This document shows, in pieces, positions 6,022 to 62,841 of a stretch of 64,000 nucleotides of DNA. Source of the stretch: Telopea speciosissima (lineage: Eukaryota > Streptophyta > Magnoliopsida > Proteales > Proteaceae). Position 1 is the stretch's first letter, and every line of letters begins with the position of its first letter. Made by a program: the position numbers and the translations under genes. The notes under the pieces are model-generated. The model was not told the origin of the DNA and ran no database searches. It saw only the letters and a program-made list of their open reading frames with translations. The stretch lies in contig NC_057921.1 in assembly GCF_018873765.1 (NCBI RefSeq), positions 65,895,557-65,959,556 of the forward strand, in the 5' to 3' direction.

Positions 6022-6955
6022 ACGTCTAACACCCCTATGTTTTTAAACAATTACATCTATTACCCTTAGAATTTAAAAAATTATGTTTGTACCCCTGAGT
6101 GCTCTCTGTTATTTTTATTTTGAAAAGACAATATTACCCTTTCTTATTTGTTATTAAGGAAATTTATGTTTACCATCCTTGTGGTTTCAAACAATTACGT
6201 CTACCACCCTTGAATTATTTTTTTAAATTCATAAAAAAGGTGTTTTTTTTTACATATTTACCCCCATTGTTTGAAACACCATCGTCTCAAAAGGGAAAGT
6301 CATCGCCCACATATCCTCTGCAAGTGATCGCAAAATGGAAGGTCGTCGGCTCTCAAACCCTTGTCGCTCCAGATAATAGGGTATGCAACGGTAACAAGGT
6401 TGGATGGAGTGAGTTTATTAATAGCAAATAAGAAAGGGCAAAATTATCTTTTCAAAATAAAATTAACAGAATTAGCACTTAGGGGTACGTACATAATTTT
6501 AAAACTTCAAGGGTGGTAGATGTAATTGCATAAAAACACAGGCGTGATAGGGATCGTTATCCTCTCCTATAACTACACGGTGCAGTACTGCATCGTACGG
6601 CGCAGCAGAGGCCTTGTGGCACAATGGGCCCCATATGGTGCACATGGCCTCTGCAGCTACCGCAGGATGCAGTACTGCTCTGTGCAGTAACTGCATAGGA
6701 TAAAAACTCAGCGTGATAGACGTAAATTTCCCTTATGTAAAAGCACCTTCATTAAAGGTATTATGGGCATTTAGTTAATATTTAGGCGATGACATCATCA
6801 TTTATCTATTCTCATCTAATGGTAATGGTACGTTACTACGTTTGTAAGAATCTTTCAAAATACAGGGGAGGTTTAAGAAATAGATGAAATTTCAAGGGTG
6901 GTAGACATAATTATTTGAAACCATAAGGGTGATAAACGTAAATTTTCCAAAAAAA
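6022..6955. mobile_element. Middle element(s): GGAAATTTACGTCTA inverted-repeat family, two interleaved arm pairs
   Basis: Two inverted-repeat pairs interleave. Pair A is 6022-6158 with the complement at 6419-6738. Pair B is 6161-6235 with the complement at about 6885-6955. Ends read GGGAAATTTACGTCTA and the complement of TAAACGTAAATTTTCC. The arms carry 'acaattacatctaccaccctt' text. Order A-B-A'-B' suggests one copy inserted in or recombined with another. Arm A' is interrupted by the element at 6551-6710. There is no coding sequence. Confidence 0.65.
6551..6710. mobile_element. Inner element: Mutator-type fold-back MITE with perfect 9-bp target duplication
   Basis: A 160-bp GC-rich palindrome inserted in arm A' of the surrounding element. 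The 9-bp repeat GCGTGATAG lies at 6542-6550 and 6711-6719. Internal pairing includes TGCAGTACTGCAT against ATGCAGTACTGC, and GCAGAGGCC against GGCCTCTGC. Removing it and one repeat restores the host arm, which is direct evidence of transposition. A 9-bp duplication indicates the Mutator superfamily. It is non-coding. Confidence 0.8.
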
Positions 6956-7681
6956 AAAAAAAAGGAACCATTTTTAATTTTCCGTCAATCCGTGCCCGAT
7001 ATCTTTTGATACCCTGCCTGAATCGTAGTGGTATCAGTTGTTACCAATACTAATAACCTTGATAGCAATGGATATGTCCTCATGCCAAAAGGAATAATGA
7101 CAACCCAATGAGAAGAAAAACTCTTGCCTTTTGCGTTTTGTGGGGGTTATTATCATCATTAGGAAGGGAAGGGAATCTTTGAATAAATTGGGTCATGGTT
7201 TGAAAATCAAATCTAAGAAGGCAGAATTTGGATTCGAATTGGCTTACCCTGATTTCAATTCATGCCACTTTGAATTGGAATAGAGATCTCTTTCACTTTA
7301 TTCTTTATTTTTGATCGATTATTTTTAATCAATAAAATGGCAGAAAATTCAATAAACGTTTCTCTTGTAGCTACATTTATAGGACTTTTTTGAATCCAAG
7401 ATTTGTAAATCATTTAGTTCTTTTCGATTTCAAATCTAGGGTTTCGGTTAATTCTGACCGATTAGAATTGGTAGTAATTTCTTGACCAAAAATATAGTTG
7501 TTTACTATTTCACGAAGTCAATCTAAAATTGAAATAAAAATCATATCAAATTTGATATAAATTACCTCGAATTTGCCTGATTCACATCTCAACATGAAGT
7601 GGGATAGACGATATGCAAAAATTAATACCTAAGAATGAGTGAATGAATTATAATGGAATAGTTGCGGACAGCATCCCTCCC

Positions 7682-7821
7682 CCAACACAGATCTTCTACG
7701 GCGCGTTGCCTTGTGCTGCACAGGCACAAGGCAGCGCACATTGACTGCCTTACCCTTGCCCGTGCCACCTTATGTCTGCGCAGTACGGCAAGACGGACAA
7801 CCCACGCCGTAAAAGATCTGG
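7682..7821. mobile_element. Mutator-type fold-back MITE with 9-bp target duplication
   Basis: The direct repeat ATCCCTCCC lies at 7673-7681 and 7822-7830. Arms: CAGATCTTCTACGGCG on the left and the complement of CGCCGTAAAAGATCTG on the right. The interior is GC-rich, with GCCTTGTGCTGCAC and CTGCCTTACCC text also found in the 9700 element. It is non-coding; long open frames here are accidents of GC content. Confidence 0.75.
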
Positions 7822-7839
7822 ATCCCTCCCGCGCACCTT

Positions 7840-9690
7840 CTGGTTTCTTTTCTTCTTCTCATCATCTATTCGCTTTCTCACCTGAAGTCGTGATTTGGAT
7901 GAACAGGTACAGTCATGCATGGGGAAGTTTCATGGATCTCATATTACAGAGATGAACCTTCCCCATCACTGCAACCTGGTTCATACCAATCAGAGCCTTA
8001 GGTGTTGCAGAGACGAGAGATTGGTTTCTTCTTCCTTTCTCATGTGCGGCTGGGAAAGAATTGTAAGACAGAAAACAAACTTGCTAACCAATTGTCTCAG
8101 TTTAGGATCTCTACATAATACATATACTTACAAGCCACGCATTGCCAGCCCATACACACCCCCACCTCCTCCGTGATTTCAGGCCATTTATGTTTGTAGT
8201 GAATGGGGCTTTCCTATCTAATGCATACAGGGTTTGCTTGCTTCTGTGGCTTCTTAAAGATCTTCCATTATTTACTTGTGAAGAAGGAAGGGGAGTACAG
8301 TCTAGTTCAAGTGCAATGACTGAAGGTAGGGGTATCAAGAATCGCTATCCCCTCCGATTCGCTGCCCTCTCCAATTCCTTCAATTCCTCCGATTCCTCAC
8401 ATGGGGGTGGAAATGACCACCCTATCCCCTGCCCAAAAACACTGCCCAAGGTGGGGTCCACTCCCTCCTATTAGAGGAATTGGAAGTGCCCACGAATTGA
8501 AGGTGATAATTATTCGGGGTTATCAATCGGTCCCAGTGATTTAAGATTTTGCATCATTTTTATCATTTAGGTAATCGGGCCTTGTAGGTTAGGGCATGAA
8601 CATGTTTCTATTCAATCAATCACTTACTAGTCCATAATTAAGCTATAATCGAACTAATTTCCTGATCAGGCTATAACAGATCCTTAACGGGCTATCATTG
8701 GGCCTGCTAAATAGGTTTAAAGGGATTAATCATCAATCAAGGTCAGTGTTCGACTAAACACAATTAGTAATCGGTCTAATTGATCTTGGGCTTCAACCGG
8801 TGGGTTCAGATCAGGCCAACTTTTGACACCATAAAGGTCCTAAGTGAAGGACCTTGTTGCGTGATACCTTCTTTGCATCATTTGAACTCCTTGGTCTCCC
8901 TTGACCAGAGGTGTGGGAAAACTCTAAACTGCTACCAGTGCAGAGAACCCCTGTAGGACAATTTTATTTATTTTTTGGGTTGTATAGAATCCTTTGAGCA
9001 AGCGACGTAGAGGAGCACACCAATGAGGTGCGAAGGAACAGTTTTGTACATGAAAACACAGTACGGTCATTTCATATGTGAGAGAGAGAGAGAGAGAGAA
9101 CACGCGTACCCAAAAATCTTTTCACTTTTTGTTGGTTAAAAAAAAAATATAGTTATGTTGATTAGTTGTCCATGTAATAAAGGGATGTTAAGGCTATGTT
9201 TGGATGCCAAGAAAAGAGAAGAAAAATATAGCTCTCTCGATTAGTTATCCATAAATTAATTATTGTGTCATTTTCTTATTATGTTTCCGGAAATCACAAG
9301 ACAAATTTGAACCATGCATTTTTATGATTTTTTCAATCTAAATCGTTTGAAACCGATCAAAGTTAGGAGAGTGGATAGTATTATCTACAGTATTGGTAGC
9401 ATGGACATACATGGGATAAATGCCAATACAATGACATTAGAAAAATAATAGAACCGAGTGACAATAATAATTGATTTTTTATTTTTTTTTAAACTTTTAA
9501 TTTCAGGCTTGCTACAAGTTAGGAAAGTTGTCAAGCTCAACCCGCCATGTTATTTATGGAAAACTCCCAACTCCTAACCCGCTAACTCCTCAATTACTAT
9601 TGGTTCAAAATCTCACAAGACCTAGGCCGAGTCGCCTCAGCCACTTATCGATGATCCCACCTTGGCTCCACCCTATAGGACCAGCCTAGG
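7840..9690. other. Intergenic DNA with degenerate repeats
   Basis: No gene recognised. It holds a diverged fold-back remnant at about 8325-8485 (AAATGACCACCCTATCCCC core, 'tattagaggaattgg' text), a 'tatcaatcggtcc' repeat from about 8516, and a (GA)n microsatellite at 9080-9099. Confidence 0.45.
9080..9099. repeat. (GA)n microsatellite
   Basis: Ten consecutive GA units. Confidence 0.9.
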
Positions 9691-9699
9691 GTCACCAGG

Positions 9700-9857
9700 G
9701 GATGCAGATTGTCTACAGCGCAACTGCCCGTCTTGCCTGTGCTGCACAAATATAAGACCACGTGCAAAGACCACCTTACCCCCACTCAGGCAAGGGTAAA
9801 GCGATCTTTACGTGCGACCCTGTGTCTATGCAGCTGCGCCGTAGACGATCCAAATCC
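9700..9857. mobile_element. Mutator-type fold-back MITE with perfect 9-bp target duplication
   Basis: GTCACCAGG flanks both sides (9691-9699 and 9858-9866). The terminal arms are GGATGCAGATTGTCTACAGC and the complement of GCCGTAGACGATCCAAATCC. It shares TCTACRGCGC ends and GCCTGTGCTGCAC text with the 7682 element, so they are one subfamily. It is non-coding. Confidence 0.8.
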
Positions 9858-10189
9858 GTCACCAGGTCCACCACACTTATTTGGGATTTGATTTCGTAGC
9901 TTTGACTAATTGAGGTTTGTCACATGCAAACACATAGCATGAAATCCTGTTTCTCCAATATACAAAACAAATGGTTCCAAAAGATGAATGGTCTCACTTT
10001 CTGATCCCGCAACCTAACCCCAAATTCTTGTCTGCCATCTTTTCTTTCTAAAGTTTCCATTGAACAAAGATCTTGATTCCTGCCTCTTGCTTGCCCAACT
10101 AACAACACAAGAGGAAGAGGGTCAAAAAGAAAAAATTAAAAGAGAGAGAAGTGAAGTAGAGGGAAGGGTTAGAAGATAGATATGAATTT

Positions 10190-10560
10190 AATGCAGATCT
10201 CTTTCCCCTCGATCCCATCAAACCCAGAATCAGATTTGGATCGGAGCCGATTCTGATTCTGATTTTGATTCTAATTTTGATTCCGATTCAATTGAAATCA
10301 GTTGGAATCAACTTAAACCCTAGAAACACAATAGGAATCTATCACTCCGGACGGTGAGAATTGGCTGGGATCAACAGGAATCAATCAGAATCAGCTTGAA
10401 CCCGATAAACGAGTAGGAATCAATCACTCCGGAACAGCGAGCATTGGATTAGCCGAGTCAAATTGATCTGGAATCGGCTTGAACCCTAGACACCTAGTAG
10501 GAATCGATTACTCAAAAAGGATAAGAATCGGGATCAGCCTCGGCTAACTCGGCTAATCCG
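10190..10560. repeat. Three diverged ~84-bp tandem units in GATTC-rich repeat
   Basis: Units begin near 10306, 10391 and 10473, each with the frame 'atc-gcttgaaccctaga...agtaggaatc-atcactccgga'. They are preceded by a GATTCTGATT run at 10236-10290. I see no gene in or around it. Confidence 0.6.
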
Positions 10561-10776
10561 AGATTTCACCTAAAGAACAAGTGATCAGTTTACACCCAAA
10601 AAAAAAAAAAAAAAATGGGCTCAAAGTATAGAGAATTAAAAGTTTAATTACAAGTAACTTGCTTAATTTACATTATGGAAACTTAAGGGAAAAAGAGGAA
10701 AACAAGATGGTACAAAAATGGAGGAAGGGGGGGGAGGAACCTGGGCTTTGTGAGGGGTGGGTGGGAGGGGGGAGAG

Positions 10777-11109: not shown

Positions 11110-11941
11110 GATTTCTTAGTAATCAGTACTTGAAAACTACCTCTCACTTCTCACTAAGATTTAGGGATGGAGGAGAAAAGTTACAGAAAAGAAATCTTTA
11201 AAAATGTGTTATCTTTGAGAATTCAAGTGGTGGTGCCCTGTCTTGAGGAGGAGAGGGAAATGGTATGGGTATTTAAAGCCTTCAATGGGGGAATGTTAAT
11301 ATTTTAGTTTCTTATTTATTATTTAATGTGATATGATTAATAGATCTCTAATCAAAATTTAAAAGCAAAAAAAAATTAATAGAAAAGAGGTACGTGGACC
11401 TGCGTTCCTTCCTCTGCTTTTCTATAGCCTCAAATTTTTCTACGCAGAGTGACTTGAGAAGGAAAGAGACGATTTGCTGATAGAGACGCTTTACTGTACT
11501 ACTGTAGTCATAAAGTCCCTTCCATGGGTTCCTCTGTGGCGCACATCCCAAGGTTGGGAGCATCTTGGGATGCGGTCCAAGTACTCCCAGCCGTCGATAG
11601 TGCGTTGGACATCCTGAGGCGCCATAGAAGATCAGGGTGCAGGGATTACCGCAACTGACACAACTGCCCATATATTTCCTTAGATCTACTAAAATGCCAT
11701 TCCTTGCCGAACCACTAAGGGTCGTTTTGGTTACAAGCAAATAGGGGAAAAATATCACCTCAATTCCCTCTAATAGAGGGAGGTGGATCCCACATCGGGC
11801 AGTGTGTTCGAGTAAGAGATAAGGTGGTCATTTCTGTCCTCTTATTAGATGGAATTGAGGAAATTGAGGGGTAGGCAAATTGAGGGAATAAAGATCCACA
11901 AATAGGAGGTTTGGATGGACATATCTTGGCCCTGAGGACGA

Positions 11942-12066: not shown

Positions 12067-12129
12067 CTCTAGCTCTCTCCCGGATGAAATTTTGCTTGGA
12101 GTGTTCCTGTTACAAGGCTGGTAGCCAAA

Positions 12130-12254
12130 GAAATGAGAATACTACCTAGTTGCGTGTGTCGCGTAACTCTTGCGCTTGGACACAGGGCCACGCAAAATGA
12201 CCACCATGTCCTCAACGCTCCACACGTGATCAGGTAGCGTTATTTTCCCTTATT
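12130..12254. mobile_element. Fold-back MITE, 'TACCTRG' subfamily
   Basis: Left arm GAGAATACTACCTAGTTGCG, right arm the complement of CAGGTAGCGTTATTTTCCC. The core is CGCAAAATGACCACC, the complement of the GGTCATTTTGCG core. Non-coding; no clear target duplication. Confidence 0.55.
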
Positions 12255-13097: not shown

Positions 13098-13308
13098 GGG
13101 GAAAGAACACCACCCGATCGTGTTAGACACATCGTCTCTGTACCTTGACACAAGGGAACGCAAAATGATCACCAGACCCCTGAATCAGATCCTCTCCAAC
13201 GCACATCCAACAACAGCTGAAGAGGATCTAAATCTAGACTGAATAAGTTCAGACTGAACTTTGACACGCACGATGTCTCCAGACGACCGTTACTTTCTTG
13301 TTAGTTTT
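13098..13308. mobile_element. Diverged fold-back MITE with a second small fold-back inside
   Basis: The left end GGGGAAAGAACACCACCCG and core CGCAAAATGATCACC place it with the 12130 and 32284 elements. A 44-bp palindrome, AGATCCTCTCCAACGC...GAGGATCT (13186-13229), with the GATCCTCT ends of the other subfamily, sits inside. The right arm is poorly matched. Confidence 0.4.
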
Positions 13309-14632: not shown

Positions 14633-14639
14633 TAGAAAG

Positions 14640-16600
14640 GGTTTCTAAGGTTAAGACAATTCCGACAGATTCACGTTGAATCAGAATTAAAAAAACAAAT
14701 GAAATCGGCTCAGGCTAATCCAATCGAGAGGTTGTGCTACACAAGTTGTTCATAACTATATAAATGTAATGCTGATGGATGAATGACGCCGGTACTAGTA
14801 GACCAAAACAGAAGATTTGATTATCCTTTTACTTAAAATTCTCTTTTGTTTCGCTTTCGCAGATCGGTGAGGGATCAGAGTTAGGACTCAGGACAGCGAT
14901 GGTCAGATCACCTTTCTCTCCTGTGAGCCTTTGACCCAGTCCAGAAAGGGCCAAAGATGCAGGTGAATGTGAACTAATATTTTACTATTTTTTTCATTAC
15001 TTCATAATCTTCTCTTTGGTTTTTTTTTTCAACTGGAGATGACTTAGAAAGCGGTCGGGATTGGGATCCCCGCCCCCGATTTGACACTCTCTCTCTCTCT
15101 CAGTCTTACAGAGACAATTATTTTCGTCCTTCAGTAGAAGACTAGCAGGTATTGACGGGGTCATTGTGTAATTTGATTCGGAATGAGGTTCCCAAATGCT
15201 TCTGGCGTTTGTGATTCAAATGGAATATCATATACATCACCGTAGCCTTTTATGCTTGAATGGAGGAGATAAAATTGACTCTAGGATAGGACCGGCATCA
15301 TAGACATATATATCCCTGCATTCTAAGGCAAACGCAGTTTAGAACCCAAACTTATAGCCAAAAGCCATCGCCATCTTCACCCTCTAGTCATCACGATTTC
15401 ATGAATCAGGCGATTGGTTTCGTTTCCCTAATGTGAATGGAAGGACGGATGGGTGAGAGAGGGAAAATAGCTTAATAGAGAAAGCTGAACTCTTCTCATG
15501 AAAGAGAAATTTTAGGTCTTACTTCTCATTACAGTAGCTTAAGGCTGTGTTTGGTATGCATTTTTGGTTGATTTCGCATTATAGGACTAAAAACAAGAAT
15601 GCTTTACAGGTTGATTTCACATTCTTGGACGATATAAACAACTTAATATGCATACCAAACGCTGCCTAAATAAACATACAATGTTGATTAACTGTTACCA
15701 ACTGATTACTATAGACATCCATTTCATCCACTACTACATTAAACCCTAATATAACTTCTATTAGGGTTTAATTAACTACCCGTTTACATGAAACAAATCG
15801 TGACAATGCAATACTCCCCACACCATCTTCACGTAAGAACATACAGTGCATGGCTCATGCAAGAGTTCTGCATGTGGCGGGTGTTCGTAACACAGGATCT
15901 GATCGAATCATCTGATTTTTGTACAAAAATATCCTAGATGCCAAGAATATATCAATTCCAGAGCTAATTCAGATCATGATCTGATTCGGATCGAAATAAT
16001 CGTTACCAAATCCTAACCACTGCTCATCATTGTACCCCACTCATTGATGCACGGATGCTCCGTCTCTTCATATAAAATTTAATTTTGAACAAAAGTTCTT
16101 AAATAGTATGATAGAGAGGTTGCTAGCATACCCTGGCCTAGCGGCTCACCCTCCTATTTCCAATTAATGCCACTGAAACACATGTGAAAACAGCCTTGAC
16201 CAGTTCATATTTTCTGCCACTCCCATTTTGTCTGAAGAATGTAAAACTAGTTGTAAAACTCTCTCATCTCTCTCGAACTGCTCAACATCATCGTCCCAAC
16301 CTGTATCCATTTGGGCTGCAATGAAGGAAAATATTGTTGAGGGATCTAAAAATATCTTACTGTTCTTACCGAGTTTTATGGTTTTGATTTCATGTTGGCC
16401 GAACAAGGGGGATCTGTTATAATTTGTTTGTCTGATTAAGAAGCATTGGTTTTGATCGAAAAGGGGAAGTGGGATAGGAGTTTCAGAGATCAAAATGGTG
16501 TGTCATCAAACCTCTGAAGTGATTATCTGTTCATAAAATATAAACTACCAAGATGGGAATTAGGACAACCAAAACACAGACGTGAAAAGCAGATCATCCG
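14640..16600. other. Intergenic DNA downstream of UBR7, no gene recognised
   Basis: An open frame on the minus strand (16164-16493, 109 aa) resembles nothing I know and has no supporting structure. A (CT)n stretch lies near 15089-15102. Confidence 0.4.
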
Positions 16601-23500: not shown

Positions 23501-26266
23501 GAATATACATAGTAACTATAAGCCATACAACCTCATCAGGAGATTCAAGACCCAAATGGTTCTCATGAAACCAGTCCTCGCAGACGCAGCACTGGATCAT
23601 CTCCACCTGTTCTTCAGCATCTGGATCTGGGTAAGGGCGATTGCATGTGCAGTAGGAACCTTTGAAATTATGGTTGTACAAATTTCCCATATTCTCAGGA
23701 TCTTTATTTGCAAAAAGCTTGCAGAAGAACACCCCAAATTTTGAATTTCCACAATCACACTTGAAGTTTCTCTTTGTCCATAACTCGACAACCTTATCAA
23801 AGTAGCATAAGGCAATAATCTCCATCAATATTTTTATATGAGTATGACATGTGATAAACTTCAAGAAAAGTTACACATATCAAACCATATTGGTTCACAG
23901 GTACATTAATAAATAAGACACTTTAGCAGAAGGTTTTGCAAGGAATTCTATATTTTCCATCAAGTTCCCAAATTGCTAAAGAAAGTTCTCAGGCAGTGTA
24001 TACAGTACAAACAAAAAAAAAAAGTATAGACCTGATTGCTTCATGAATTTTCAATTTTTGCCAGTCCAAAGCAAATGCGAATTAAATTTGAAGGAGAGGG
24101 TTCCCCACACCTCCAGTGTGGGGGAATCTCACATGCCATACCAATGGCAATGCAGAGAACGGTATCATCCACATAGGACCCACAAGGTCAGAACAGGAGA
24201 GAGAAAACACACTGTGACGTGGGAAACTTTTTCGTATATTTTAAAAAGAAAAGGTAAACTGTAATAGAGCTGCATTCTTGTCTGGTCAAAAGATGCTACT
24301 GCGGGATGATGGATTTCATCTAAAACTGAAATTAAAGTGATTCAGAAGCAAAGGCATGGTTGCCCAGTTTTCTTTCTGCAGTCACTTTGTTCCTTGAGTT
24401 TCTAATTTGAATATCAAAAAGTTCAATATCTGATATTCGGTTGAAGGACTAAGTTCTTCTAGACTGTGTCCAGACAGAGATACAAGCATTACAAGCTACT
24501 ATATGCAGATTAACAACCAAGCATTGTTGTCTTCATCCATTCCATCCTCACAACAAGGTTCCTAAACAGATTTTTGTCACCCTTTAATCTTATATTCTGC
24601 CTTTAAATGACAAAATTTATTATTCGTCGTTCAAATCTGATAAAAGCTCTCCTCCAATCGAGGACTTTATTAAAGGAAACTTCCAAGAGCCAATATGAAG
24701 TTATTAAATTGACCATCCTTCTGTTGGGATATTGTAATTATCCCAAATACTCCAACTTGGCTTTAGTGATGTCAAACATGGACATTTATGTGTCAACCTA
24801 AACAATGAACACCCTGGTCATGATGGTTTTGGGAATACTACCACATTCTGTTGGGATATTGTAATCATCCCAAATACTCCAATTTGATTTTAGTGATGTC
24901 AAACATGGACATTTATGTGTCAACCTAAAAAATGAACACCCTGGTCATGACCTGAAAGATGTTCATGATGGTTTTGGGAATACTACCACATTTTTTGAGT
25001 GTGAAAAGGTTAAATTTCCAAGGAGCTCATGATGTACTTTATATTGGAGAAGCAAACATCGAGCATTTACTGAATTAGAAGTATTAAGTAACCCTCTTGA
25101 AGAGCAACAGAAAAGTTGGCAATAACAACATACAAGCTTCATTAAGCCATGGTTCTTCATGTAATGACGGATGCCAATGACTTGGAAGAAGCTCATACAT
25201 CAAAAGGTTAAAGTGATCAAGTCCAAGCTTCAAGAGTTCATAGGATAAGATGCTTTATTTGTATATAAAAATGTAATCCTATGTAACAACTCCAACAGCC
25301 TAGATGCCCTTTATTAATGCACAATAAGTCACTCATAAAGAATAGGTAGTCATAGATTTATACCTTTTTAGATCATTTACCTCCTCAATCATCTGCTATT
25401 CTTAAAACTAACTTTCTTAGACTTAATGGTTGCTTGAACCTCATCATCCCACCACCAAGTCTCCCTAGGGGCATGACGGATTCTTTTCGATTCCCCTGGG
25501 ACCTCTTTAAGAACTTTCTTCAGGTGTATGTGAAGTTAATATCACTGCCAACCTAAATAATTGGTAACCAGCTGAAAACACCCAGAGAATGGGGAAAAAA
25601 ATAGTGTGGATTGCTTGAAGGCTACAAACAGATGCATCGTACCTTATACTGTAAAAATATTGTGCAAAAAGGTTTTTGATACAATGCAGTTCCAATGAGA
25701 ACTATAGAAAACAACCATTGCATGATTGGTTCAAGAGCACAAGAAAAGAGATGGAATTAAATTAAAGGAGACCTAGCAATGTTAAGCGAAATATAGCCAC
25801 TCAACATTTTCTAGTTTTCTCACCAAAGTATGACACAAAAGTTGTAACTTAAAAAAGTGATTACCTCGTGTCCATCATGGCAAGATAGGCTACATGCAGT
25901 GCAAAACCCAGCATTCCCGTCTGGAGTACAAGTCAGGCACGAGAAAATCGCCTGCCTCTTCATGTAACCTTTGTTGTAAGTGCACTCCTTACCATCGTCC
26001 CCTCCCAAAACCAAATCCGCCTCCTTCGAACAATAACAGAAACTTTGAATGAGAGCAACAACAGCAGTAGTTAAAGACAAATCTTTAAGACAACAAACGA
26101 GGGTTAAAATAATTGTAATATTAAGAAGCTTAGTGTCAATATATAGATAATGTATTGAACGCCGCATAAGGGGAAAGAAAATCACCAACTCCCGTTCTTC
26201 GACATCATTAAGGTATTCATGGATTGTCACTGTCTGCTCTGACTCCTCTTCGAACACATCGTCCAT
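17095..26266 (-). CDS. UBR7: UBR7-type protein (UBR box + PHD finger), 482 aa, five exons
   Basis: Exons (minus strand): 26266-26186, 26023-25865, 23792-23532, 18165-17308, 17184-17095. All four introns are phase 0 with GT-AG ends, and the joined frame is open. The UBR box spans about residues 41-105 (starting CTYNKGYMKRQ; CDCG at 92-95). An atypical PHD finger follows (YCTC at 127-130, CEDWFHENHLGL, and a last Cys pair at the start of exon 4). Then a long Ser-rich linker, and an end of SKKRRRIL, a likely nuclear signal. In the family the UBR box recognises N-degron or histone-tail N-termini and the PHD-like finger is linked to histone H2B ubiquitylation; here this is inferred from homology. 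Intron 3 (5.4 kb) and intron 2 (2.1 kb) are full of transposon relics. The start MDDVFEEE suits the usual acidic N-terminus. Confidence 0.93.
18960..19150 (-). mobile_element. Ty3/gypsy pol (reverse transcriptase) fossil
   Basis: The minus strand encodes text close to RYPEWLANIVPVPKKD and RVRMCVDF, the signature start of the Ty3/gypsy reverse transcriptase. Only this short piece is recognisable; it is broken and old. It lies in UBR7 intron 3, in the same orientation as the gene. Confidence 0.7.
19435..20110. repeat. Four-unit variable minisatellite inside the hAT-like element
   Basis: Units start near 19439, 19650, 19902 and 20020 with AATAAATCCCTCCCC, then TCTCGACTCTCTCCCTGTC, GT-rich text and GCAAGGCAAGAAGAAGAAAA. 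Lengths run about 110-250 bp. Long open frames on both strands here are repeat artefacts. Confidence 0.8.
20451..20493. repeat. 20-bp perfect-but-one inverted repeat with 3-base loop
   Basis: GTGTATTGCAGGTGTAACTT, loop TTC, then AAGTTACACCTCCAATACAC. One mismatched pair. It would form a stable hairpin. Confidence 0.85.
20529..20562. repeat. (TA)n microsatellite
   Basis: About 17 TA units inside the hAT-like element. Confidence 0.9.
20810..21910 (+). mobile_element. Ty1/copia pol fossil (reverse transcriptase and RNase H parts)
   Basis: Recognisable parts in order: LDIKNIFLYGDLEEE-like text near 20817, VYMKQPPAYV near 21251, the YVDD polymerase motif near 21463, and an RNase H part around 21730-21900 (TWSKKQTTVARSSAKAKYRA). 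Between the first two lies unrelated LTR-like sequence (about 20862-21245), perhaps a separate insertion. It is broken in many places and has no paired LTRs, so it is an old fossil, antisense to UBR7 in intron 3. Confidence 0.8.
24718..24990. repeat. Tandem duplication in a likely LTR remnant
   Basis: Units 24718-24845 and 24846-24990 both start TTCTGTTGGGATATTGTAAT and end TTTTGGGAATACTACCACA. Text starting TGTTGGGATATTGTAATTA and continuing to about 25310 resembles an LTR of the copia type. No second LTR was found, so it may be a solo LTR fossil in UBR7 intron 2. Confidence 0.6.
25380..25512 (-). mobile_element. LINE (RTE-like) ORF fragment
   Basis: The minus strand encodes VLKEVPGESKRIRHAPRE followed by TWWWDDEVQATIKSKK, the linker text found before the reverse transcriptase in plant non-LTR elements. 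The fragment is truncated at both ends and lies in UBR7 intron 2. Confidence 0.65.
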
Positions 26267-29150: not shown

Positions 29151-29599
29151 CTAAACTTCCACAAAATAAACCTTGGAGAGAATGCAACACATCCTCGATC
29201 TTCTCCAACAAGACACTATATATGATGTCACGTTATTAATTTTCTTATTAAAAATTTTTTTGGTCAAAATAATAATTCAAAGCTTTTTTGGGAATTCTGT
29301 AGTTGGTGGAATTAAAAGAGAGATCGACATGATTGCTTTTGACAATGCTTCAACCTAAATAAACAAAGGCCCGATTATATACAACGGTTAGCGCGTTAGA
29401 ACAGGCAAGGGATGAACCCAATTACAAGTAAACTGATCTTTTTTCTTTTTAAATGAATTAATTTTTGTGAGCTTGAAACGCTAAAATGTATATAGATTTA
29501 CTAATGAATAAATGATTTGACTCACTTGAAGGCTTGAACAAGACCATTTAATAAGTGAATACATGGGCAAATATATGATTAAATATTAATATAATTTTT

Positions 29600-29735
29600 G
29601 GGAGAATATTCTTTGTACCGCAGCGCAAGTTGCACCCAGGCACATGGGCCTGCCACTCAGGGGCCAGGGTAGTCATTGCACCCAACCCCATGTGCTTGGG
29701 CGCAGCCTGCGCTGCGGCCCAAAGAATAGAACCCC
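29600..29735. mobile_element. Mutator-type fold-back MITE with perfect 9-bp target duplication
   Basis: ATAATTTTT lies at 29591-29599 and 29736-29744. The arms GGGAGAATATTCTTTG and CAAAGAATAGAACCCC, plus the inner pairs CCGCAGCGCA/TGCGCTGCGG and GGCACATGGG/CCCATGTGC, make almost the whole 136 bp a hairpin. The core reads AGTCATTGCACCC. It is non-coding and stands out as GC-rich in AT-rich DNA. Confidence 0.85.
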
Positions 29736-30329
29736 ATAATTTTTTTAGAAGAATAAACTTTAAATTACTTATTATAGAAAGAAAGAAAAAAACCTATATT
29801 ATTTGTGAAAATGGTCAAGTTTCAATATCCTCCTTCTTGGACAGAGAGCTTATCTAGTTTAAGCCCTATTTGCCCATTTATAAGCAAGAGATACTTATGC
29901 TCTAGAGCTCTTAACAAAATATATACATGCAAAACATATTTTTAGTTGAAACATATCACACAAGATATTAAATAAATCCCCATAACAACCCTTAACATTC
30001 TCTTTCATTAGTCAATTTACAACTTCTTGACAATCCATCCAGATTATTAAAAAAATATATAGATTCAAAATATTTCTTTAATATTAAATAAACCCCTAGA
30101 CCAGTCCTTAACATATTCTTATCAATGACTTCTTGACAATCCATGAAGACTATAATATGCAAACACTCCTGTTCTTGCGCTCCTTGCAGTTTTTTGATTT
30201 ATTCGTCATAGCTCTTAGTTGATACCAACTGTGATTTCGATACGGATTGGTCGTATCAGGCCAGATACCTTTGTTTTTTTTATTTTTTAATAATTTTACC
30301 CTCCCTTGTATTGATAGCACTGGCATGTA

Positions 30330-30749: not shown

Positions 30750-32283
30750 CTGCTATGGTAACGGTCAGGCATGGCCAATACCAATATGATTCGACTGATA
30801 TGATTGATTCGATATTGATACCTTGACTTGTGAGACCTAACGGACACTCTTTTCCTCCCTAGCCATGTAGACCATCTATTGATGAACCCATTTCCTAAGC
30901 CATGAATAGTGTGGCTTGGGAGATTCCTCCCACACCAGCGGCATGAGGAATCCTCTTCCTCTTTTTATGAAAAAAAAAAAAACCGCTCCAATTCGAGTGA
31001 ATCCTACGCCTAGAAATAGAAGCATGCAAAAATACTATTCCACCCTCATTCTAATAAAATAAAAAATCTCATTCGTATTGATACCCATGCACAGCCCAAC
31101 TAGGCAGTAGTCTCTTGCCCTTCTTTTACTTTATATATGGGTCAACATTCTCTATGGAGAGCATGGCCCTTGCGTGCATGCAAGGGCCAATAGCGGCAGA
31201 ATTTTTGTCTTTCATGGGGGTATGATGATCATTTCACCTTCTCGGTGTCTAGACGTGGGCGATACATTTTCCCATACAGAATTTTTCTACATTATATATA
31301 GAAAGTTATTTTTCTATATATATTTTCTATGTTTGAATTTCTCTTCCGTAGTACCACTAGAGTACAGTCCACTAGGGAATGACTCAGTTTTGACTATTGA
31401 TTCAAGAAGCAAGTTTGAATGAGTCCCAGACTCCCAACCCCTAGGCCCAGTTGTTGTCAATCATTCCCATCGTTCATTTTCCTTATTTTCTGAACTTTTG
31501 AATCTAAGGGGGCATTCAATATTTCAGCCTGGTTTCATTCCGTATGGACAAAAGTAGGCCGCTTTCATAATACGGAATCAGATCCTCATCCTTCACGCGT
31601 TTTCGCAGTTGGTGTGTCAACAACATCTTCCCTACATCCAGGGGTGGGCCATGCTCCTCCAATCTTCTTCCTTTTCCCAGACGTTGGATGAACAATTGGG
31701 ACTCCACAGCTGTTTCTGTTAGGCCTTAATTTGAATCTTAAATATCATTAAGTTCAATAAGTTAACGGATTTATGATTTTGATTTTTTCTTAAACAGAAC
31801 TTTCCACCCTCTCCTCACCCCAAAAAAAAAAAAAAAAAACCCTAAAAAGAGGAAAATTCGCTAACTCCCTATCAATTAATGTAGAAGTATACTTTTGACA
31901 TCTCAATTAACATAATTATAACAAAAAAAAAAATAAAATAGCACATTTTGAGCAAATATAGCACACATTTACCAAAAAAATAAGATGGAATTAACATCTT
32001 CTAGTGTCCATGTCCCATAGGAATGACTCAATTTGTTGCAATCTAGTGATAGTTATCATAATTTTAGTTATATACTTCTTCACAGGTACCCTTTTATACT
32101 GATGATGAAAGCCCATAAATTTTTTTTTCTTCTTTTCTTTTCTCATTCTCTAAATATATTATACCATTCATTTGTATTTCAAATCGATCAACAAATCTCA
32201 ATTTGGATGATTGATTACACCAAAATTCATGACAAAGGTTTTACATGAAAGCAAAGTTCTTAATGAAATTGACTATAAGTTAT

Positions 32284-32472
32284 GGGAAAGAGAATGCTAC
32301 TTAGGCGTGTGCGGCGTGCTATTCCTACACCTTGATACAGGGATGCGCAAAATGATTGCTGCATTCTCATGGAAATGAAGAATTTTTCGGAGCACGATAG
32401 TCATTTTGTATGCCCTTGCGTCTGGACGGAGGAGCAACACACCGCACACACCCAGGTAATGTTCTTTTCCCC
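32284..32472. mobile_element. Fold-back MITE, 'TACCTRG' subfamily
   Basis: Inverted arms of about 75 bp each: GGGAAAGAGAATGCTACTTA on the left, the complement of AGGTAATGTTCTTTTCCCC on the right, with GTGTGCGG/CCGCACAC inside. Cores CGCAAAATGATTGC and AGTCATTTTGTATGCCC are both present, one in each arm. Flanks ATAAGTTAT and TCAAGTTAT suggest a worn 9-bp duplication. Confidence 0.7.
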
Positions 32473-33643: not shown

Positions 33644-36600
33644 ATGGAATTAACTAACATGGATTCCTCACTCGTTCTCTCCTTTCTCCTTTTCATCTTC
33701 TTATTCCATTTCAGTTACAGGGTAACAGGTCAAAAGAGTTGCCAGACTTATACCTGCAGCGACAGTACCGGACCGGCGATTCGATTCCCTTTCAGAATAG
33801 AAGGGCTTCAGCAGGAGACTTGTGGATACCCAGGGTTCGACCTCAAGTGCAGTAAACAGAGTAATACGATTCTGGAGATTCCGTCTTCAGGAAGGTTTTG
33901 GTTACAAGAAATCGATTATACCAAACAGGAGATCGGCATCGTCGATCCAGATAACTGTCTTTGGAGAAAATTACGTTCTTTGAATCTCTCTGGTTCACCT
34001 TTCAAGGGATTTTACTACGAGAACTATTGGATGGTTAAGTGTTCGACGAAATTGACGATGGTTTCTGTTCCTCCGTCGAAGTTCATAGATTGTATGAGTA
34101 ATTCGAGTTATAACGTTTGGGCTACGGCTTCAGAGGTGGATGCGTTGATGATGTTACCGATGGGTTGCGAGCTGATTGCGACGATGTCGGTTCCGGTTCC
34201 TTGGTCGGGATACTATGAGAACGGTGATCAAACCTCGTTTAATGGCCAGAGAGAAAACCTTGTGCTTAAATGGGATGAGCCCTATTGCGCTGATTGTGAG
34301 GCGAAGGGAGGGAGATGCGGGCGGTTGCAGAGCAACTCCAGTCTTGAAGTTGGATGTTTCGATGTTTCTCGAACTCGACACGGTGAGTCACTCACTACTC
34401 ATTACTCACTTTCTATTTTTTTCTGAGTTAATCTTCTAATCTTTCATTAGTTTAAGGCTTTACTCTGCTAATCATTCAGCTTGTCTCTCTCAATCTCTCT
34501 TTTTCCCTTACAATAAGAGAAAGAGAACGCCACGTGCGCCCTGACAAGGGGTGTGCAATGACCGCCACACTCTCTTGGAACTACGAAAATGATCAGGGGT
34601 GTAGTGGTCATTTCACTCACCCTTGTGTCAAAACGTAGGGTGACATATCTGGTTTGATCGGGTGGCATTGTTTCTCCCTTAAAATAAGTTTTGTTTTGAT
34701 AGACTTAAAATAATTACTACTAAATGACTATAATTGGATGAGCTAATTATTGATGATGAAGTCTATGATTTTGAAAAAGGGTATCGGATTGAGCGTATCA
34801 GCCGATATTTGTCATGTTCGATATTGATATCTATCTTGTATCGGTAAAATATTTTTAATTGGAGATAAATCTATCTAAAAAATGATTTTTAATCAAAATT
34901 GAGGGCTAAACCATTCGGTTTGGCATCGATACCAATCTAGATACCCTTCGTCAAAACCATAAAGGAAAGAAACAACGTCTCTAAAACCCCAACAAGGTTC
35001 CTCATCCAAGGGTGTCAATCAGGACGACTCTAAGGAGCGAGTTAATCCCAAAACTATCTCATTTCTTAAACGATTCAAAATTTGGGATCTGATTCTGTTT
35101 AATAATGGATTGGTCCGGTTTCAGTATCTTAATGGTTACATTTAAAGAAGTCTAATATTCTAAAGTATACAAATAATTGAATATATATAATTTTAAGCAT
35201 ATGAATAATCAAACGTCAACCTTTATTTTTTCTTAATAATTATGATATAATGCTTATAAGTTATAACTATTAAATACTAACAATGTGGGAATGTTTTCTC
35301 GCGTCATCTCACATCTTGATCATATGGGTCTCGCAGAGACATTCTCTTTCCCCCTTGACCATATGAGCCATCCAGTTGATAAAACCTTCTCATGCTGTGA
35401 TTAATGTGGCATGGGAGATTTATATAAAAAAAATATTTTGTATAAATTAAGCCCCTCCCCTACACTGTCAGCAGGCATGGGTAACCCTCTCGCATCTAAC
35501 AATTAGCTAGGCTAACCTTCTTGGAATTAAAGCTAATTGGATCTTGGTTTGGTAAGCAACAGGCTTAACCGCTTCCTCTAAATTACATTAATAGTTTGAT
35601 TTAATTACAAGTTTAAAGTGCTGATTTGATTGGAATGGTTAAACTTGTCTGACATCGCTATTAAATCAAATTAGGCTAAAGTTAGCCATGTAATCCAAGA
35701 TTCTAGCTTGCTTAATTTGGATTTCTATTTAGATTTTTTTGGCCAACCACTGTCATCACCTTAAGATTCTTTAAGAAAATAAAGGTCGCTAGCAGTTGCA
35801 TATAACTTACCAAAAATATATAAAACAGATGTTCGTAACAGTGTTTTATTCTTTATTTTTAAGGTTTTGAGATATAAAGGGGTGGCACCTGTTGTACCAA
35901 CTCACCTAAGTTGTTTTTTTCTAGGGTAAGGGATCTCTATGCCGCCAGGGTACCTTACGTTCTCTCACAGAGATTTTTATATTCATTTGATTAGAACCGA
36001 GTTGTTTTCATCTAATTGTATTTGACCGAGTGAAGAGATTCCATCTCTCTACTCTTCATCATGAGCAGAGTTTTAGTTCACGGTATACTGATCTGTATCG
36101 GACCAATACTAGATCAAAAAGTCATTTTTTTTTCACCAAAAATCTAAGGTTCATGTTAAATCACCGATACCGTATCGATCAAGTGTAGATATCGGGCAGC
36201 ACGGCGGATACCAATATGGACTAGGCAATTCCTAAAGCCCTGATCATGATTGAAGAGAATCCATTGTCTTTACATTTGGGGAAAGCAAATTGAAGCTAGA
36301 AATGTTTAAGGCTGTGTTTGGTATGCATTCTTGCAATGAATTCTAGGTCAATTTTGCATTCTTGGATGATAAAAACAACTATTTATTTTTATCAGTCGAA
36401 ATGCGAAATCGACTTAGAATGCATTCGAAGAATGCATACCCAACACTGCTGTAATGAAACATTCAAGATGAAAGAGTTCCATTCCAAGCTGCAATACTCA
36501 AACTCATTCTTGGAAGAAAGAGATGAAAAGCTGAAATTTTCTTTTGTTGTACTTTTGGGGGAAAACAGGATTACCAAGGAGTGTGAGCTATGCAGTGACC

Positions 36601-57397: not shown

Positions 57398-57573
57398 ATG
57401 ATTTTAGGTATCAGGATCAGGATTGGCCATATCAGTGGTATCGAAACAGGGGAGGGCAAAATAGAAAAAAAACCTGTATCAGGGTTTTAGGGCTAAAAAT
57501 GTCCAATACGGCCGATCTGTATTGGTATCATTAGCTACCGATACCTGTCCTGATACCATGCACTAAAACCCTG
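57398..57573. mobile_element. TATCGG-type MITE in ATG6-copy intron 6
   Basis: The left end GATTTTAGGTATCAGGATCAGG-like and right end CCTGATACCATGCACTAAAAC are inverted repeats. The interior is rich in GTATCGG/CCGATAC, with the CAATACGGCCGATC palindrome near 57506. Confidence 0.6.
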
Positions 57574-60542: not shown

Positions 60543-60766
60543 GGGAACGTGGCTCTGGTGCAGCAGTGGTAGGAGCTGCACAGGTGCAGCACCAAAACCA
60601 TCCCAAATACAAAGGGGGGGGGGGGGGTGGTCATTTCACATGTGGGGCCCAGGTGGGACCCACCTGTGAAATGACTACCTTACCCCCTTTTTTGCTGCAG
60701 TTTAGCGGTGCTGCACCTGTGCAGCTCCCGCCACGGCTGCACAGGATCTTTTTCAGGGATGGGGAT
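60543..60766. mobile_element. Large GC-rich fold-back MITE (22-bp perfect arms plus inner palindrome)
   Basis: Arms 60572-60593 and 60707-60728 are perfectly complementary over 22 bp (GGAGCTGCACAGG and so on). The core has GGTCATTTCACA (60629-60640) and TGTGAAATGACTACC (60665-60679), which pair. Nearly the whole 220 bp can fold. A repeated GGGGGTGGG at each side (60534-60542 and 60767-60775) may be a target duplication but is low-complexity. Confidence 0.7.
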
Positions 60767-61036
60767 GGGGGTGGGTTACCACTTTGAGTAGATAGATGGG
60801 TGATTACTTGCGAAATTTCAAATTTCCTGATCTATCTACACCATATGGCTCATCTTATGTTGGGTTTTCTCCCCCAGATTTTAAGTGACCCATGCTTCAT
60901 GGTTGGTTGGGGTTCAATGGGATTTCAAGGGATTATAGGTTGGTTTTATGGAACTCATGGTTCAGGTATCTGCCATTTTGGATTTCATGGTTTAAGGTAA
61001 GATAGAAGGGTTCATGGTTTCAACTATGGTTTTAGG

Positions 61037-61058
61037 TCTCTCTCTCTCTCTCTCTCTC
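61037..61058. repeat. (CT)n microsatellite
   Basis: Eleven TC units. Confidence 0.9.
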
Positions 61059-61789
61059 CGCCCCACTACCTACCACACCAGAAGATTTGGTAAATGTTGG
61101 ACTTTACTTATGCGAGCCTAAGCACACCAGATGAGCCAAAGCCCACTGGAGTACCTACCACCAATTCAAAAATAGGTACTGGACCACTGGTTTTAAGTAA
61201 TAACACCAAGAAGGCCCAGTGTTGCATGATAATGAGTTAATAAAGGCTCTCTGTTTGTGGAAATCTGATTTCAGAAAAAATATTTTCAGGACTTTCTTAT
61301 TTTTCAATGTTTCTTCTGGAAAAAAAAATAATTCAAGTTTGAGGAGGTGAACTTGGAAAATTACATCCTGGAAAATTTCCGTAATGCTCTTTTTCTGGAA
61401 CTTTTTCGTAAGCTTGTCTTTGTTGAGTAAGAGTGTGACCGTTGATCGAATCAGTAATGAACTCTTTCTCTCCCTCGCCTTTGATAATTTATCCCTCTCA
61501 TGTGGCTCCGTTTGATTGTAAGACAAGGGAAGAAAATGAAATCAGGAAAAAAAATCCTCTGTAGTATAGGCATCTTGCATGCGGTGCTTGAGAGCTTGAC
61601 ATGTGGATGATGTGACATCCAACAATGCCGAGTTTGAGAAGAAAAAAAAAATAAAATTTGGATCAATCGAGCTCACACCGTTGGCTGAAGCATCTTCCAC
61701 ATGTCGAGCATTCAGACTCAAACTGTAAAGGATTTTCATCAAGGAAGTCAAGGGAAATATTTGCATTTTCTGGACATCAGTCTAAAACC

Positions 61790-61985
61790 CCGTTACTACA
61801 CATCCAGTGACTTCGGTCATTTTTATCACCTCACGTACAGTACACCAAAAAGGTACATCTGACGGTGCACCTTAAAGTGATTTTGTTTAAAACACTCCCC
61901 CAAGTGCATGTGCACTGTTAGTTGTACTTTTTTGGTGCACTTGAGGGTGTATTGTACTTGAGGGGATAAAGGTCCGTGACTTCAG
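61790..61985. mobile_element. Possible fold-back element
   Basis: Inverted text: ACAGTACACCAAAAAGGTAC on the left and TGTACTTTTTTGGTGCAC on the right, with GTGACTTC near both ends (61809 and 61976) and CGGTCATTTTTATCACC as a core-like stretch. Ends uncertain. Confidence 0.45.
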
Positions 61986-62697
61986 CCACCATTCAATTCA
62001 CTCTCTCTTCAATTCACTCTCTCTCTCTCTCTCTCATAAAAATCCTTTGCCGTACTGCAGGGTGCACCCACGTGACCTCTACTATGCGGCAGGATGTGTA
62101 CCACACACCTTGCAATACGGCTGAGAATCCTGATTCGGGTAGGTACATGTTCACGTACTTAGCGGGTCCTCACCACCTGCCCGCTTCGTTTCATTAATAT
62201 GAGTAAATGAAAACCGGAAATAGAAATTTCTTCTGCGTGGGAGACTTGGACGGATTAGAATTGTTCTCAAAAACCTTAGAATCAGCCTTGTAATCTGTTC
62301 GAAAATCCCTAGAATCGACTGTTCAAAATTAAAATTTGTTACTGCGTATGCTAGTCCAAAATAACCGATCCAATCGATTCAATTATGATCTAAATTAACC
62401 AATTTAACCGATTCTAATTCCGACTTTAAGACTTTGGTACCACCCAATGGTGGCCCAAGAGAATCTTTTCCATTTATCCGTTATCTTCCTCCTTTTCTGT
62501 ATAAATAATTCGTCTCTTTTTTTCTGTGGTTTAGATATTGAAAAGGAATGTTGGCAATTGGTTTAATGAGTCCAAACTCCTACGGCAACACTCCCTCTTG
62601 CCATTGTAAAGATGATTTGTATTCTTTGTTGTTTTTGGTTGTTAACACCATGCGACCCACACTGTAACCATATAGCAATCCAACGGATCCACCCCGT

Positions 62698-62841
62698 ATT
62701 AAAATCCTCTACAGTATTGGTGGGGTGGCAGTGCACATCCGGCGGCACAGCAGAGGCCATGTGTGTCATATATGTCACCTAACCTCTGTTGTGCCGTTAG
62801 ATATGCACCGCCACCTCGCCGGTACTGCAAAGGATCCTGGT
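62698..62841. mobile_element. Fold-back MITE, 'GATCCTCT' subfamily
   Basis: Arms ATCCTCTACAGTATTGG and the complement of CCGGTACTGCAAAGGAT, with inner pairs GGTGGCAGTGCA/TGCACCGCCACC and GGCACAGCAGAGG/CCTCTGTTGTGCC. Shares ATCCTCT ends and GCAGCAGAGGCC-like text with the 6551 element. No target duplication found. Confidence 0.7.

Follow-up and report, generated by a model that had tools for sequence, protein, structure and literature searches.

Why should short palindromic elements that resemble one another only loosely each carry two arms that match one another well? The question was raised by a 64-kb stretch (64,000 nucleotides; hereafter the window) of contig NC_057921.1 of Telopea speciosissima, in which the first-pass annotation had reported nine such loci (6551, 7682, 9700, 12130, 29600, 32284, 34518, 60543, and 62698). 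With four additions (631, 8339, 11751, and 62042), our inventory comprised 13 loosely similar fold-back elements and one likely half-element; 8339, 11751, and 62042 were chosen by eye, 8339 and 11751 partly on account of the core motif described below. The 13 elements, 98-212 bp by coordinates, combined short length, TIRs, and target site duplications (TSDs), as in MITEs, and were divided by judgement into five subfamilies (A-E). On balance, we favour the reading that they derive from one old GC-rich Mutator-type fold-back MITE family of about five subfamilies, with a common core and with arms homogenised by arm-to-arm copying.

The loci had been described as GC-rich and almost fully self-complementary, and the first half of this description held throughout, with GC contents of 43-60% in the 13 regions against 38% in the window, whereas self-complementarity was uneven. 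Against single-base shuffles, z values reached 12.8-19.3 for 60543, 6551, 29600, and 62698, strong hairpins, and 4.1-5.1 for 9700, 12130, and 34518, weak ones. Under strict scoring, five of the nine reported loci scored above 20, the maximum reached by any hairpin in four shuffled windows. Long inverted repeats made up most of the element, as in Foldback elements, in 6551, 60543, 62698, 29600, 32284, and 631, and were weaker in the other seven. TIRs built of tandem subrepeats, another Foldback feature, were not seen: Tandem Repeats Finder, run at a minimum score of 40 and able to overlook diverged arrays, located a single short array inside the 13 elements, at 8369-8398 in 8339. Rfam returned no match at the gathering threshold. 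A lenient hairpin scan was set aside as evidence because shuffles reached the window count at score 30 (114 window loci; 83-114 in shuffles) and the counting rules were unequal; the same differing rules applied at score 40 (40 window loci; 9-13 in shuffles), and many of the loci were AT-rich. The strongest hairpin in the window, at 36306, lies outside these elements.

Transposition with a 9-bp duplication was well supported. As the annotation had claimed, exact 9-bp direct repeats bordered four elements: 6551 (subfamily C; 6551-6710, 160 bp), with GCGTGATAG at 6542-6550 and 6711-6719; 7682 (subfamily A; 7682-7821, plus strand, 140 bp), with ATCCCTCCC at 7673-7681 and 7822-7830; 9700 (subfamily A; 9700-9857, plus strand, 158 bp), with GTCACCAGG at 9691-9699 and 9858-9866; and 29600 (subfamily E; 29600-29735, minus strand, 136 bp), with ATAATTTTT at 29591-29599 and 29736-29744. 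The single claimed 8/9 repeat was likewise recovered at 34518 (subfamily B; 34518-34679, 162 bp), as TACAATAAG/TAAAATAAG at 34509-34517 and 34680-34688. The remaining reported loci comprised 32284 (subfamily B; 32284-32472, minus strand, 189 bp), with a degenerate 7/9 repeat, and three without a trusted repeat, all with approximate boundaries: 12130 (subfamily B; 12128-12250, plus strand), where the zone search found no border repeat, 60543 (subfamily C; 60545-60756), which has low-complexity flanks, and 62698 (subfamily C; 62695-62840). Zone-search 8/9 repeats at 60543 (G-rich) and 62698 (within the element end) were not accepted, 8/9 repeats being present in 10-12% of controls. Among the added elements, 8339 (subfamily D; 8338-8516, plus strand) had an 8/9 repeat (GGGGTATCA/GGGTTATCA) and 631 (subfamily D; 627-802, minus strand) a degenerate 7/9 repeat; no TSD was accepted for 11751 (subfamily D; 11743-11874, approximate boundaries, minus strand) or for the weak and short 62042 (62038-62135; z, 3.9), placed in subfamily C by its tips. 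A TSD of about 9 bp, as expected of Mutator-type elements, was therefore exact in 4, 8/9 in 2, 7/9 in 2, and not accepted in 5 of the 13.

As controls, 420 swapped-flank pairs and 3000 random placements were put through the same search; exact repeats of at least 9 bp turned up in 1.2% and 1.3% of them, respectively, yielding P ~3e-6 for four of nine loci, a value to be read with the caveat that the annotation may have chosen loci for their repeats. Such repeats also occurred at 2 of 12 further hairpins, 7864 (low-complexity TTTCTTCTTC) and 20424 (TAAGTTATTA, within the arm). A scan from the repeat side, taking exact pairs that enclosed 90-260 bp after low-complexity filtering and passing those with a hairpin score of at least 28 and a GC fraction of at least 0.45, gave raw counts of 7 of 751 for 7 bp, 3 of 243 for 8 bp (two in or at 6551, one within the 7864 hairpin), 5 of 80 for 9 bp (6551, 7682, 9700, 29600, and a pair at 589 away from hairpin ends), 2 of 21 for 10 bp (the 7864 repeat and one inside 60543), and 0 of 8 for 11 bp. 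In addition, the repeat surrounding 6551 has two related copies without the insertion, at 6882-6975 (plus strand) and 6130-6215 (minus strand), which represent uninserted paralogous sites.

Given this good support for transposition with a 9-bp duplication, to which the uninserted sites contribute, non-autonomous Mutator-type fold-back MITEs are the likely class, with the superfamily provisionally assigned by duplication length only. The annotation's Mutator-type proposal was thus borne out as regards duplication and paralogous sites, whereas its statement about the arms, discussed below, received moderate support. Inverted ends beside the duplication, also a Mutator feature, were clear on inspection of the printed ends of 8339, 9700, 29600, 32284, and 34518, offset by a few bases in 7682, and loose in 6551 and 631; the remaining five have uncertain boundaries. 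Only 9700 carried the proposed end motif exactly, at both ends; 6551, 7682, and 62698 each had an approximate match at a single end. With up to three mismatches, the motif had 13 matches against 7.8 expected, a count reached by 1 of 100 shuffles. No transposase domain at E 0.01, and no MULE domain, was found in the 20 scanned of the 38 stop-to-stop ORFs of at least 110 aa in the window. Window-derived patterns had no match in the viral contigs scanned, and four matches in bacterial MAGs, from a scan of bacterial and archaeal genomes, were taken as chance.

A central core around AATGACYACC is shared across subfamilies, being detected with up to two mismatches in 10 of the 13, including one of the four in subfamily C. 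It lies near 7740 in 7682 (two mismatches) and at 12196-12205 in 12130, 8412-8421 in 8339, and, on the minus strand, 29668-29677 in 29600, 726-735 in 631, and 11823-11832 in 11751; 6551, 62698, and 62042 are without a detected core. The pattern AATGACYRCC, picked after inspection, had 9 matches against 0.52 expected, and none of 100 shuffles reached 9. A single 10-mer (up to one mismatch) occurred in 8 of the 13 elements and in all five subfamilies, whereas none of 25 shuffles exceeded 5 elements or 4 subfamilies. With the anchor excluded, core flanks across subfamilies (38 pairs) were 0.363 identical, versus 0.253 when shuffled (top of 2000, 0.296) and 0.252 at random offsets. Among the original nine loci only, the core word was found in five, a count equalled in 1 of 60 shuffles and reached by other words too. 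Two elements carry the core in both arms, 34518 and 60543 (60626-60635, minus strand; 60670-60679, plus strand), and two more do so weakly: 32284 (32418-32388, minus strand, and a second copy with E 1.1) and 9700 (9754-9785, plus strand, and a second copy at 9822-9791, minus strand, with E 4). Both copies of 9700 read AAAGA, versus AATGA or ATTGA in the other nine elements.

The claim that own arms are alike while arms of different elements are only loosely alike was upheld, with mean identities of 0.65 and 0.51, respectively, when the outermost 42 bp were compared at the nine loci, and the own pair exceeded all other pairs in six of the nine. Own-arm identity was 0.636 against 0.484 when shuffled. 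Arms of the same subfamily were 0.530 identical on the same side (shuffled, 0.469) and 0.546 on opposite sides (shuffled, 0.461); those of different subfamilies, at 0.457-0.501 against 0.458-0.460, lay at or slightly above chance, and a comparison of their outer arms still gave values above shuffles, with z 6.1 for the 3-prime side and z 5.5 crosswise. TIRs conserved among members, one of the MITE properties given in the excerpted text of PMC12071656, were accordingly not found across subfamilies in the window.

The further idea that arms were kept complementary while the family diversified received moderate support, as pairing ranks favoured it and site-by-site quartets were mixed. By global identity across the outermost 42 bp, own-arm pairing ranked 1/3, 2/15, 2/105, and 1/15 in four subfamilies (Fisher p, 0.012). 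This was one of six variants run (30, 42, and 55 bp, each global and local), and the other 42-bp variant gave a Fisher p of 0.014; the rank of subfamily B ranged from 2 to 5 of 15 over the six. Quartets, counted as own : same-side : crosswise, were balanced in subfamilies A (2:3:1) and B (5:6:2, 1:1:1, and 5:3:3). In subfamily C, own-arm grouping was clearly favoured in only three of six pairs, and this result may reflect members that are barely related to one another. The pair 8339/11751 opposed own-arm grouping in two counts (2:2:7 and 2:1:10), mostly at loop sites. The pair 6551/29600, from different subfamilies, gave 10:0:1, and own-arm pattern columns were more frequent in different-subfamily pairs (0.192) than in same-subfamily pairs (0.111), which indicates that loosely related palindromes can yield own-arm counts. 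In 6551/62698, the paired differences arrive as a block, and the stretch of sites in favour coincides in part with a one-base shift common to both arms.

Under the favoured reading of one homogenised family, the ends would serve as recognition sites for a transposase encoded at another genomic locus, and insertion would proceed through a 9-bp staggered cut, the duplication being shown for four elements. One arm would then repeatedly act as template for the other, either because the palindrome was rebuilt from one of its halves or because replication or repair switched templates at the hairpin, and sequence changes would thereby reach both arms, which are perhaps evolving in concert. A bolder version, which we put forward tentatively and regard as doubtful, is that of a conserved centre with freely changing arms, in which arm pairs are rewritten by repeated copying and new-ended subfamilies arise while hairpin and core persist.

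A less likely reading is that the window instead holds several separate Mutator-type MITE families, each palindrome having been born once by inverted duplication of a half-element consisting of tip, arm, and core. There would be no ongoing arm copying, and arms would match since the palindromes formed after the subfamilies split and later decayed. The two-arm cores of 60543, 34518, and, weakly, 32284 and 9700 are as expected if a core-bearing half was duplicated, and the even quartet counts in A and B point the same way, as does the strength of the own-arm pattern in cross-subfamily pairs. Arm differences were mostly transitions in 62698 (18:1), 32284 (17:3), and 9700 (12:2), as from simple decay. 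A likely half-element is also present at 13098-13182 (plus strand), where a subfamily B tip, similar to the right arms of 34518 (z, 5.5) and 12130 (z, 5.0), accompanies a core (E 0.1) and the hairpin was not above shuffles (z, 1.4). However, own-arm pairing ranks high inside subfamilies too, which would require several births per subfamily. Moreover, the elements with perfect TSDs were not better matched in their arms (0.76-0.81 in four) than those without an accepted TSD (0.72-0.82 in five; a small sample), so there is no sign that palindromes were freshly perfect when inserted. The corresponding argument, that perfect duplications imply arms already imperfect when the element inserted, is no more than suggestive because loci were picked for exact repeats.

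Selection for the hairpin, whether for transposition, small-RNA production, or another structural use, could also preserve complementarity via compensatory changes, and own arms do match despite diverged sequence. According to PMC12595863, small RNAs can arise from hairpins formed by MITE transcripts, and for long inverted repeats of nematodes the authors of PMC1803023, in the portion used here, weigh gene conversion and prefer structural selection. We nevertheless regard this explanation as unlikely, given that arms match at just 71-82% (gaps excluded) and that the paired differences of 6551/62698 are blockwise. Even less probable is another DNA-transposon superfamily, or a non-Mutator lineage, with duplications of about 9 bp; the ORF scan and the reliance of the Mutator call on duplication length would accommodate it, but the repeat-side scan favours 9 bp. 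Typical duplications of the other named plant MITE superfamilies are shorter than this. That these are random GC-rich palindromes, or structured sequence of unrelated kinds, bordered by coincidental repeats is scarcely credible in view of the P value (with its locus-choice caveat), the uninserted sites for 6551, and the common core, even though five of the 13 elements lack an accepted TSD, the hairpins of 9700, 12130, 34518, and 62042 are weak, and 2 of 12 other hairpins have long direct repeats.

Mutator-type elements account for 41.5% of MITEs across 207 plant genomes, as stated in PMC12550479. If the bolder version is true, new transposon ends would arise through template switching, and elements could shift to different transposases. 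To our knowledge, the origin of new ends in such MITE families is poorly understood. A fixed centre with variable, self-matching arms would allow arm homogenisation to be traced over many copies and its role in creating transposon families to be tested; should the arms simply be ancient and of separate origin, the set would amount to ordinary GC-rich MULE-type MITEs.

Among titles and abstract openings searched, with most subscription journals outside the search, we found no MITE family with a conserved core and variable arms, a weak absence. In the excerpted text of PMC12071656, plant MITEs are described as having TIRs conserved among members and AT-rich sequence, the latter not matched here, and the Mutator-superfamily MITEs resemble our elements in being short, with inverted ends, 9-bp duplications, and no coding capacity seen. 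Ours differ from them in being GC-richer than the window at 98-212 bp, in arms that vary widely between elements, and, for the stronger ones, in being palindromic over much of their length. The Tm1 Mutator/Foldback elements of root-knot nematodes (PMC3169594, in part) share 9-bp duplications as the commonest class, fold-back structure, MITE-like forms, and inter-element arm variation; their TIRs consist of 13-15 bp tandem repeats with a mean identity of 93.15% within an element, unlike the one short tandem array in 13 elements and the 71-82% arm identity (gaps excluded) found here. Tetris of Drosophila virilis (PMC4079207, as excerpted) is also a fold-back element, with 8-10 bp duplications, but is an animal element with internal tandem repeats; its TIR repeats cluster by element in two of three complete elements, which its authors consider possible homogenisation. 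Also comparable are the structure-keeping inverted repeats of nematodes (PMC1803023) and yeast (PMC8604942), in which structure outlasts sequence and arm-to-arm copying is shown or discussed, template switching homogenising short inverted-repeat arms in yeast; in the parts of these sources used, no transposon family is described, and the nematode authors prefer selection. The hairpin-MITE kind is already known, and concerted arm behaviour has been described before for inverted repeats.

All of our results on the fold-back elements rest on this one 64-kb window, which has a GC content of 38% and, judged from its gene and retrotransposon content (parts of a gene whose product has a wall-associated-kinase galacturonan-binding domain, along with a RING finger gene, an SDE2 gene, and copia retrotransposons), resembles plant nuclear DNA. 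The first-pass annotation had proposed nine GC-rich fold-back elements, designated here by their approximate start positions (6551, 7682, 9700, 12130, 29600, 32284, 34518, 60543, and 62698). Self-complementarity relative to single-base shuffles of each locus was highest at 60543 (z = 19.3), 6551 (14.5), 29600 (13.8), and 62698 (12.8), intermediate at 32284 (9.2) and 7682 (7.4), and lowest at 9700 (5.1), 12130 (4.5), and 34518 (4.1). Under strict scoring, 60543, 6551, 29600, 62698, and 32284 exceeded the best hairpin among four shuffled windows (score 20), and 7682, 9700, 12130, and 34518 did not. Support for the fold-back claim was strong at the first five and weaker at the other four. The top hairpin of the window under this scoring (36306; score 42) lay outside the nine loci. 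It belongs to one of two AT-rich palindromes (15539-15670 and 36306-36454) that both carry TTAAGGCTGTGTTTGGTATGCATT, probably represent another MITE family, and are presumably hAT-like. A long, microRNA-precursor-like hairpin at 7864-8021 (RNA folding z = -4.7 for 7864-8040), beginning 33 bp to the right of the right duplication of 7682, had no match in Rfam.

Element 631, together with 8339, 11751, and 62042, which were added by eye, brought the set to 13. An all-against-all comparison of arms (the two paired flanks of each hairpin) with alignment suggests five subfamilies: A (7682, 9700), B (12130, 32284, 34518), C (6551, 60543, 62698, 62042), D (631, 8339, 11751), and E (29600), subfamily D and 62042 being absent from the earlier finding. 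This grouping is a judgement, and some cross-group pairs scored as high as some within-group pairs (8339/34518, z = 7.5, and 8339/29600, z = 7.1, both via the central core motif; 29600/62042, z = 6.8).

The 9-bp target duplications claimed for the family were found in part. Searching a fixed zone at each element end revealed exact 9-bp repeats at 6551, 7682, 9700, and 29600, whereas the control rate of exact repeats of at least 9 bp was 1.2% among 420 pairs of swapped flanks and 1.3% among 3000 placements chosen at random (P ~3e-6 for 4/9 loci and ~2e-5 for 4/13, with the caution that loci may have been selected because of their repeats). A 10-bp repeat was also present at two of 12 other hairpins searched, one of low complexity and one inside an arm. 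Scanning from the repeat side, a GC-rich hairpin was enclosed by five of 80 exact 9-bp direct-repeat pairs spanning 90-260 bp, namely, the same four elements and one pair not at hairpin ends; the pairs passing at 8 bp (3/243) and 10 bp (2/21) all lay in or at 6551, 60543, or the 7864 hairpin. Inexact end-tied duplications at 34518 and 8339 (8/9) and at 32284 and 631 (7/9) are each weak alone because 8/9 anywhere in the zone was seen in 10-12% of controls. No duplication was accepted in the fixed-zone search at 11751, 12130, 60543, 62698, or 62042, the 8/9 zone matches at 60543 and 62698 having been rejected.

Element 6551 sits within another repeat (6105-6960), built from a TTCAAGGGTGGTAGA unit that recurs in both direct and inverted orientation. 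Two related copies, paralogues rather than orthologues, run continuously through the insertion point: 6882-6975, with GGGTGATAA matching the duplicated GCGTGATAG of 6551 at 7/9 positions, and the reversed 6130-6215, with GGATGGTAA (5/9). The 6551 flanks, joined with a single repeat copy, aligned to both across the insertion point.

An end motif proposed as common to the family was exact at both ends of 9700 and only approximate, at one end each, in 6551, 7682, and 62698; with up to three mismatches, it had 13 matches in the window (7.8 expected; 13 reached in 1/100 shuffles). One arm of a small inverted repeat (AGATCCTCT...AGAGGATCT) at 13182-13234, whose tips resemble those of subfamily C and whose hairpin is not above shuffles (z = 1.4), carries this motif with three mismatches.

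Most of the elements share a centre. The core AATGACYRCC had nine window matches (0.52 expected; nine reached in 0/100 shuffles), eight within seven elements and the ninth at 1075, where the right half of 631 occurs again as a duplicate. This direct duplication (349-bp step, from ~723 and ~1072, traced by eye to 1260) retains the core in its second copy. The same word was the best of all 10-mers at one mismatch (8/13 elements, 5/5 subfamilies), and 25 shuffles yielded at most five elements and four subfamilies. As 8339 and 11751 had been noticed partly via the core, the test was rerun on the original nine: the word occurred in 5/9 elements and four subfamilies, levels reached in 1/60 and 5/60 shuffles, respectively, and other 10-mers likewise reached 5/9. 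With up to two mismatches, the core was found in 10/13 elements (7682 only at two mismatches) and was lacking in 6551, 62698, and 62042, leaving subfamily C at 1/4. Between-subfamily identity over the 30 bp flanking the core word was 0.363, compared with 0.253 after shuffling (maximum in 2000 shuffles, 0.296) and 0.252 when offsets were random. A core profile, built from ten of the elements and thus bound to recover them, additionally matched 1075, 13098-13182 (E = 0.1), and, doubtfully, 31215-31240 (E = 0.013), with hairpins not above shuffles at the latter two. The 13098-13182 match, adjoining the 13182 inverted repeat, is a likely subfamily B half-element, its tip matching the right arm of both 34518 (z = 5.5) and 12130 (z = 5.0). 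The surrounding 31140-31290 (weak core; hairpin z = 1.8, not above shuffles) is possibly an old, degraded element.

For the ten elements with a core, arms were compared over their outer 42 bp; the two arms of one element were 0.636 identical (shuffled, 0.484). Within subfamilies, identity was 0.530 on the same side (shuffled, 0.469) and 0.546 on opposite sides (0.461); between subfamilies, it was 0.457 for 5-prime arms (0.458; z = -0.2), 0.501 for 3-prime arms (0.460; z = 6.1), and 0.482 crosswise (0.458; z = 5.5), so that arms of different subfamilies retain just a small excess over chance. When every possible arm pairing within a subfamily was ranked, the true pairing (42 bp, global identity) came 1/3 in A, 2/15 in B, 2/105 in C, and 1/15 in D; the five other variants gave 1/3 throughout, 2-5/15, 1-4/105, and 1-2/15, and the first-pass loci alone gave 1/3, 2/15, and 1/15. 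Combined p values at 42 bp were 0.012 (global) and 0.014 (local). These identities and rankings agree with the earlier claim that each copy's arms match while arms of different copies are loosely alike, but counts from four-arm alignments (own : same-side : crosswise) were mixed. Subfamily C favored own arms at 6551/62698 (10:0:2, part of it a single block with a one-base shift in both arms), 6551/60543 (12:0:0), and 62698/60543 (10:2:1), with lower counts when 62042 was paired with 6551 (3:2:0), 62698 (4:2:2), or 60543 (4:0:1). Subfamily A gave 2:3:1; B gave 5:6:2, 1:1:1, and 5:3:3; and D gave 6:1:1 (631/11751), 4:1:4 or, with other boundaries, 5:1:1 (631/8339), and 2:2:7 or 2:1:10 (8339/11751), the last crosswise excess coming mainly from the loop, where the core lies on one side only. 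Moreover, the own-arm pattern occupied 0.192 of columns in different-subfamily pairs versus 0.111 in same-subfamily pairs, and part of the subfamily C signal may therefore reflect weak relatedness. Transitions made up most of the arm differences in 62698, 32284, and 9700; in 6551, 60543, 8339, and 631, they did not.

The element anatomy fits a non-autonomous Mutator-type element, presumably mobilised by a transposase encoded elsewhere, with arm matching possibly maintained by template switching between inverted arms. Both 9700 core copies read AAAGA, in contrast to AATGA or ATTGA in the other nine elements, so that 9700 has a change of its own in both arms; its second copy scored only weakly against the profile (E = 4) but is visible also in the arm alignment. 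The traces expected if palindromes were rebuilt from half-elements are very similar, and the window does not separate this route from arm-to-arm template switching. Such switching homogenises short inverted repeats in yeast (PMC8604942); a nematode study describes inverted-repeat structure conserved beyond sequence and discusses gene conversion, its authors favoring selection (PMC1803023).

Mutator accounts for 41.5% of MITEs across 207 plant genomes (PMC12550479), and FaSt of Prunus is a Mutator MITE with 9-bp duplications (PMC12071656). The fold-back elements Tm1 (PMC3169594) and Tetris (PMC4079207) have duplications of ~9 bp, as here. A tandem repeat (127-bp unit, 1.8 copies, 95% matches) occupies 24719-24950 of the window. 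Judged from this window and a restricted search of the literature, the elements described here differ from such known systems in their GC content, their low arm identity, their almost complete lack of tandem subrepeats, and their combination of a shared centre with variable arms.
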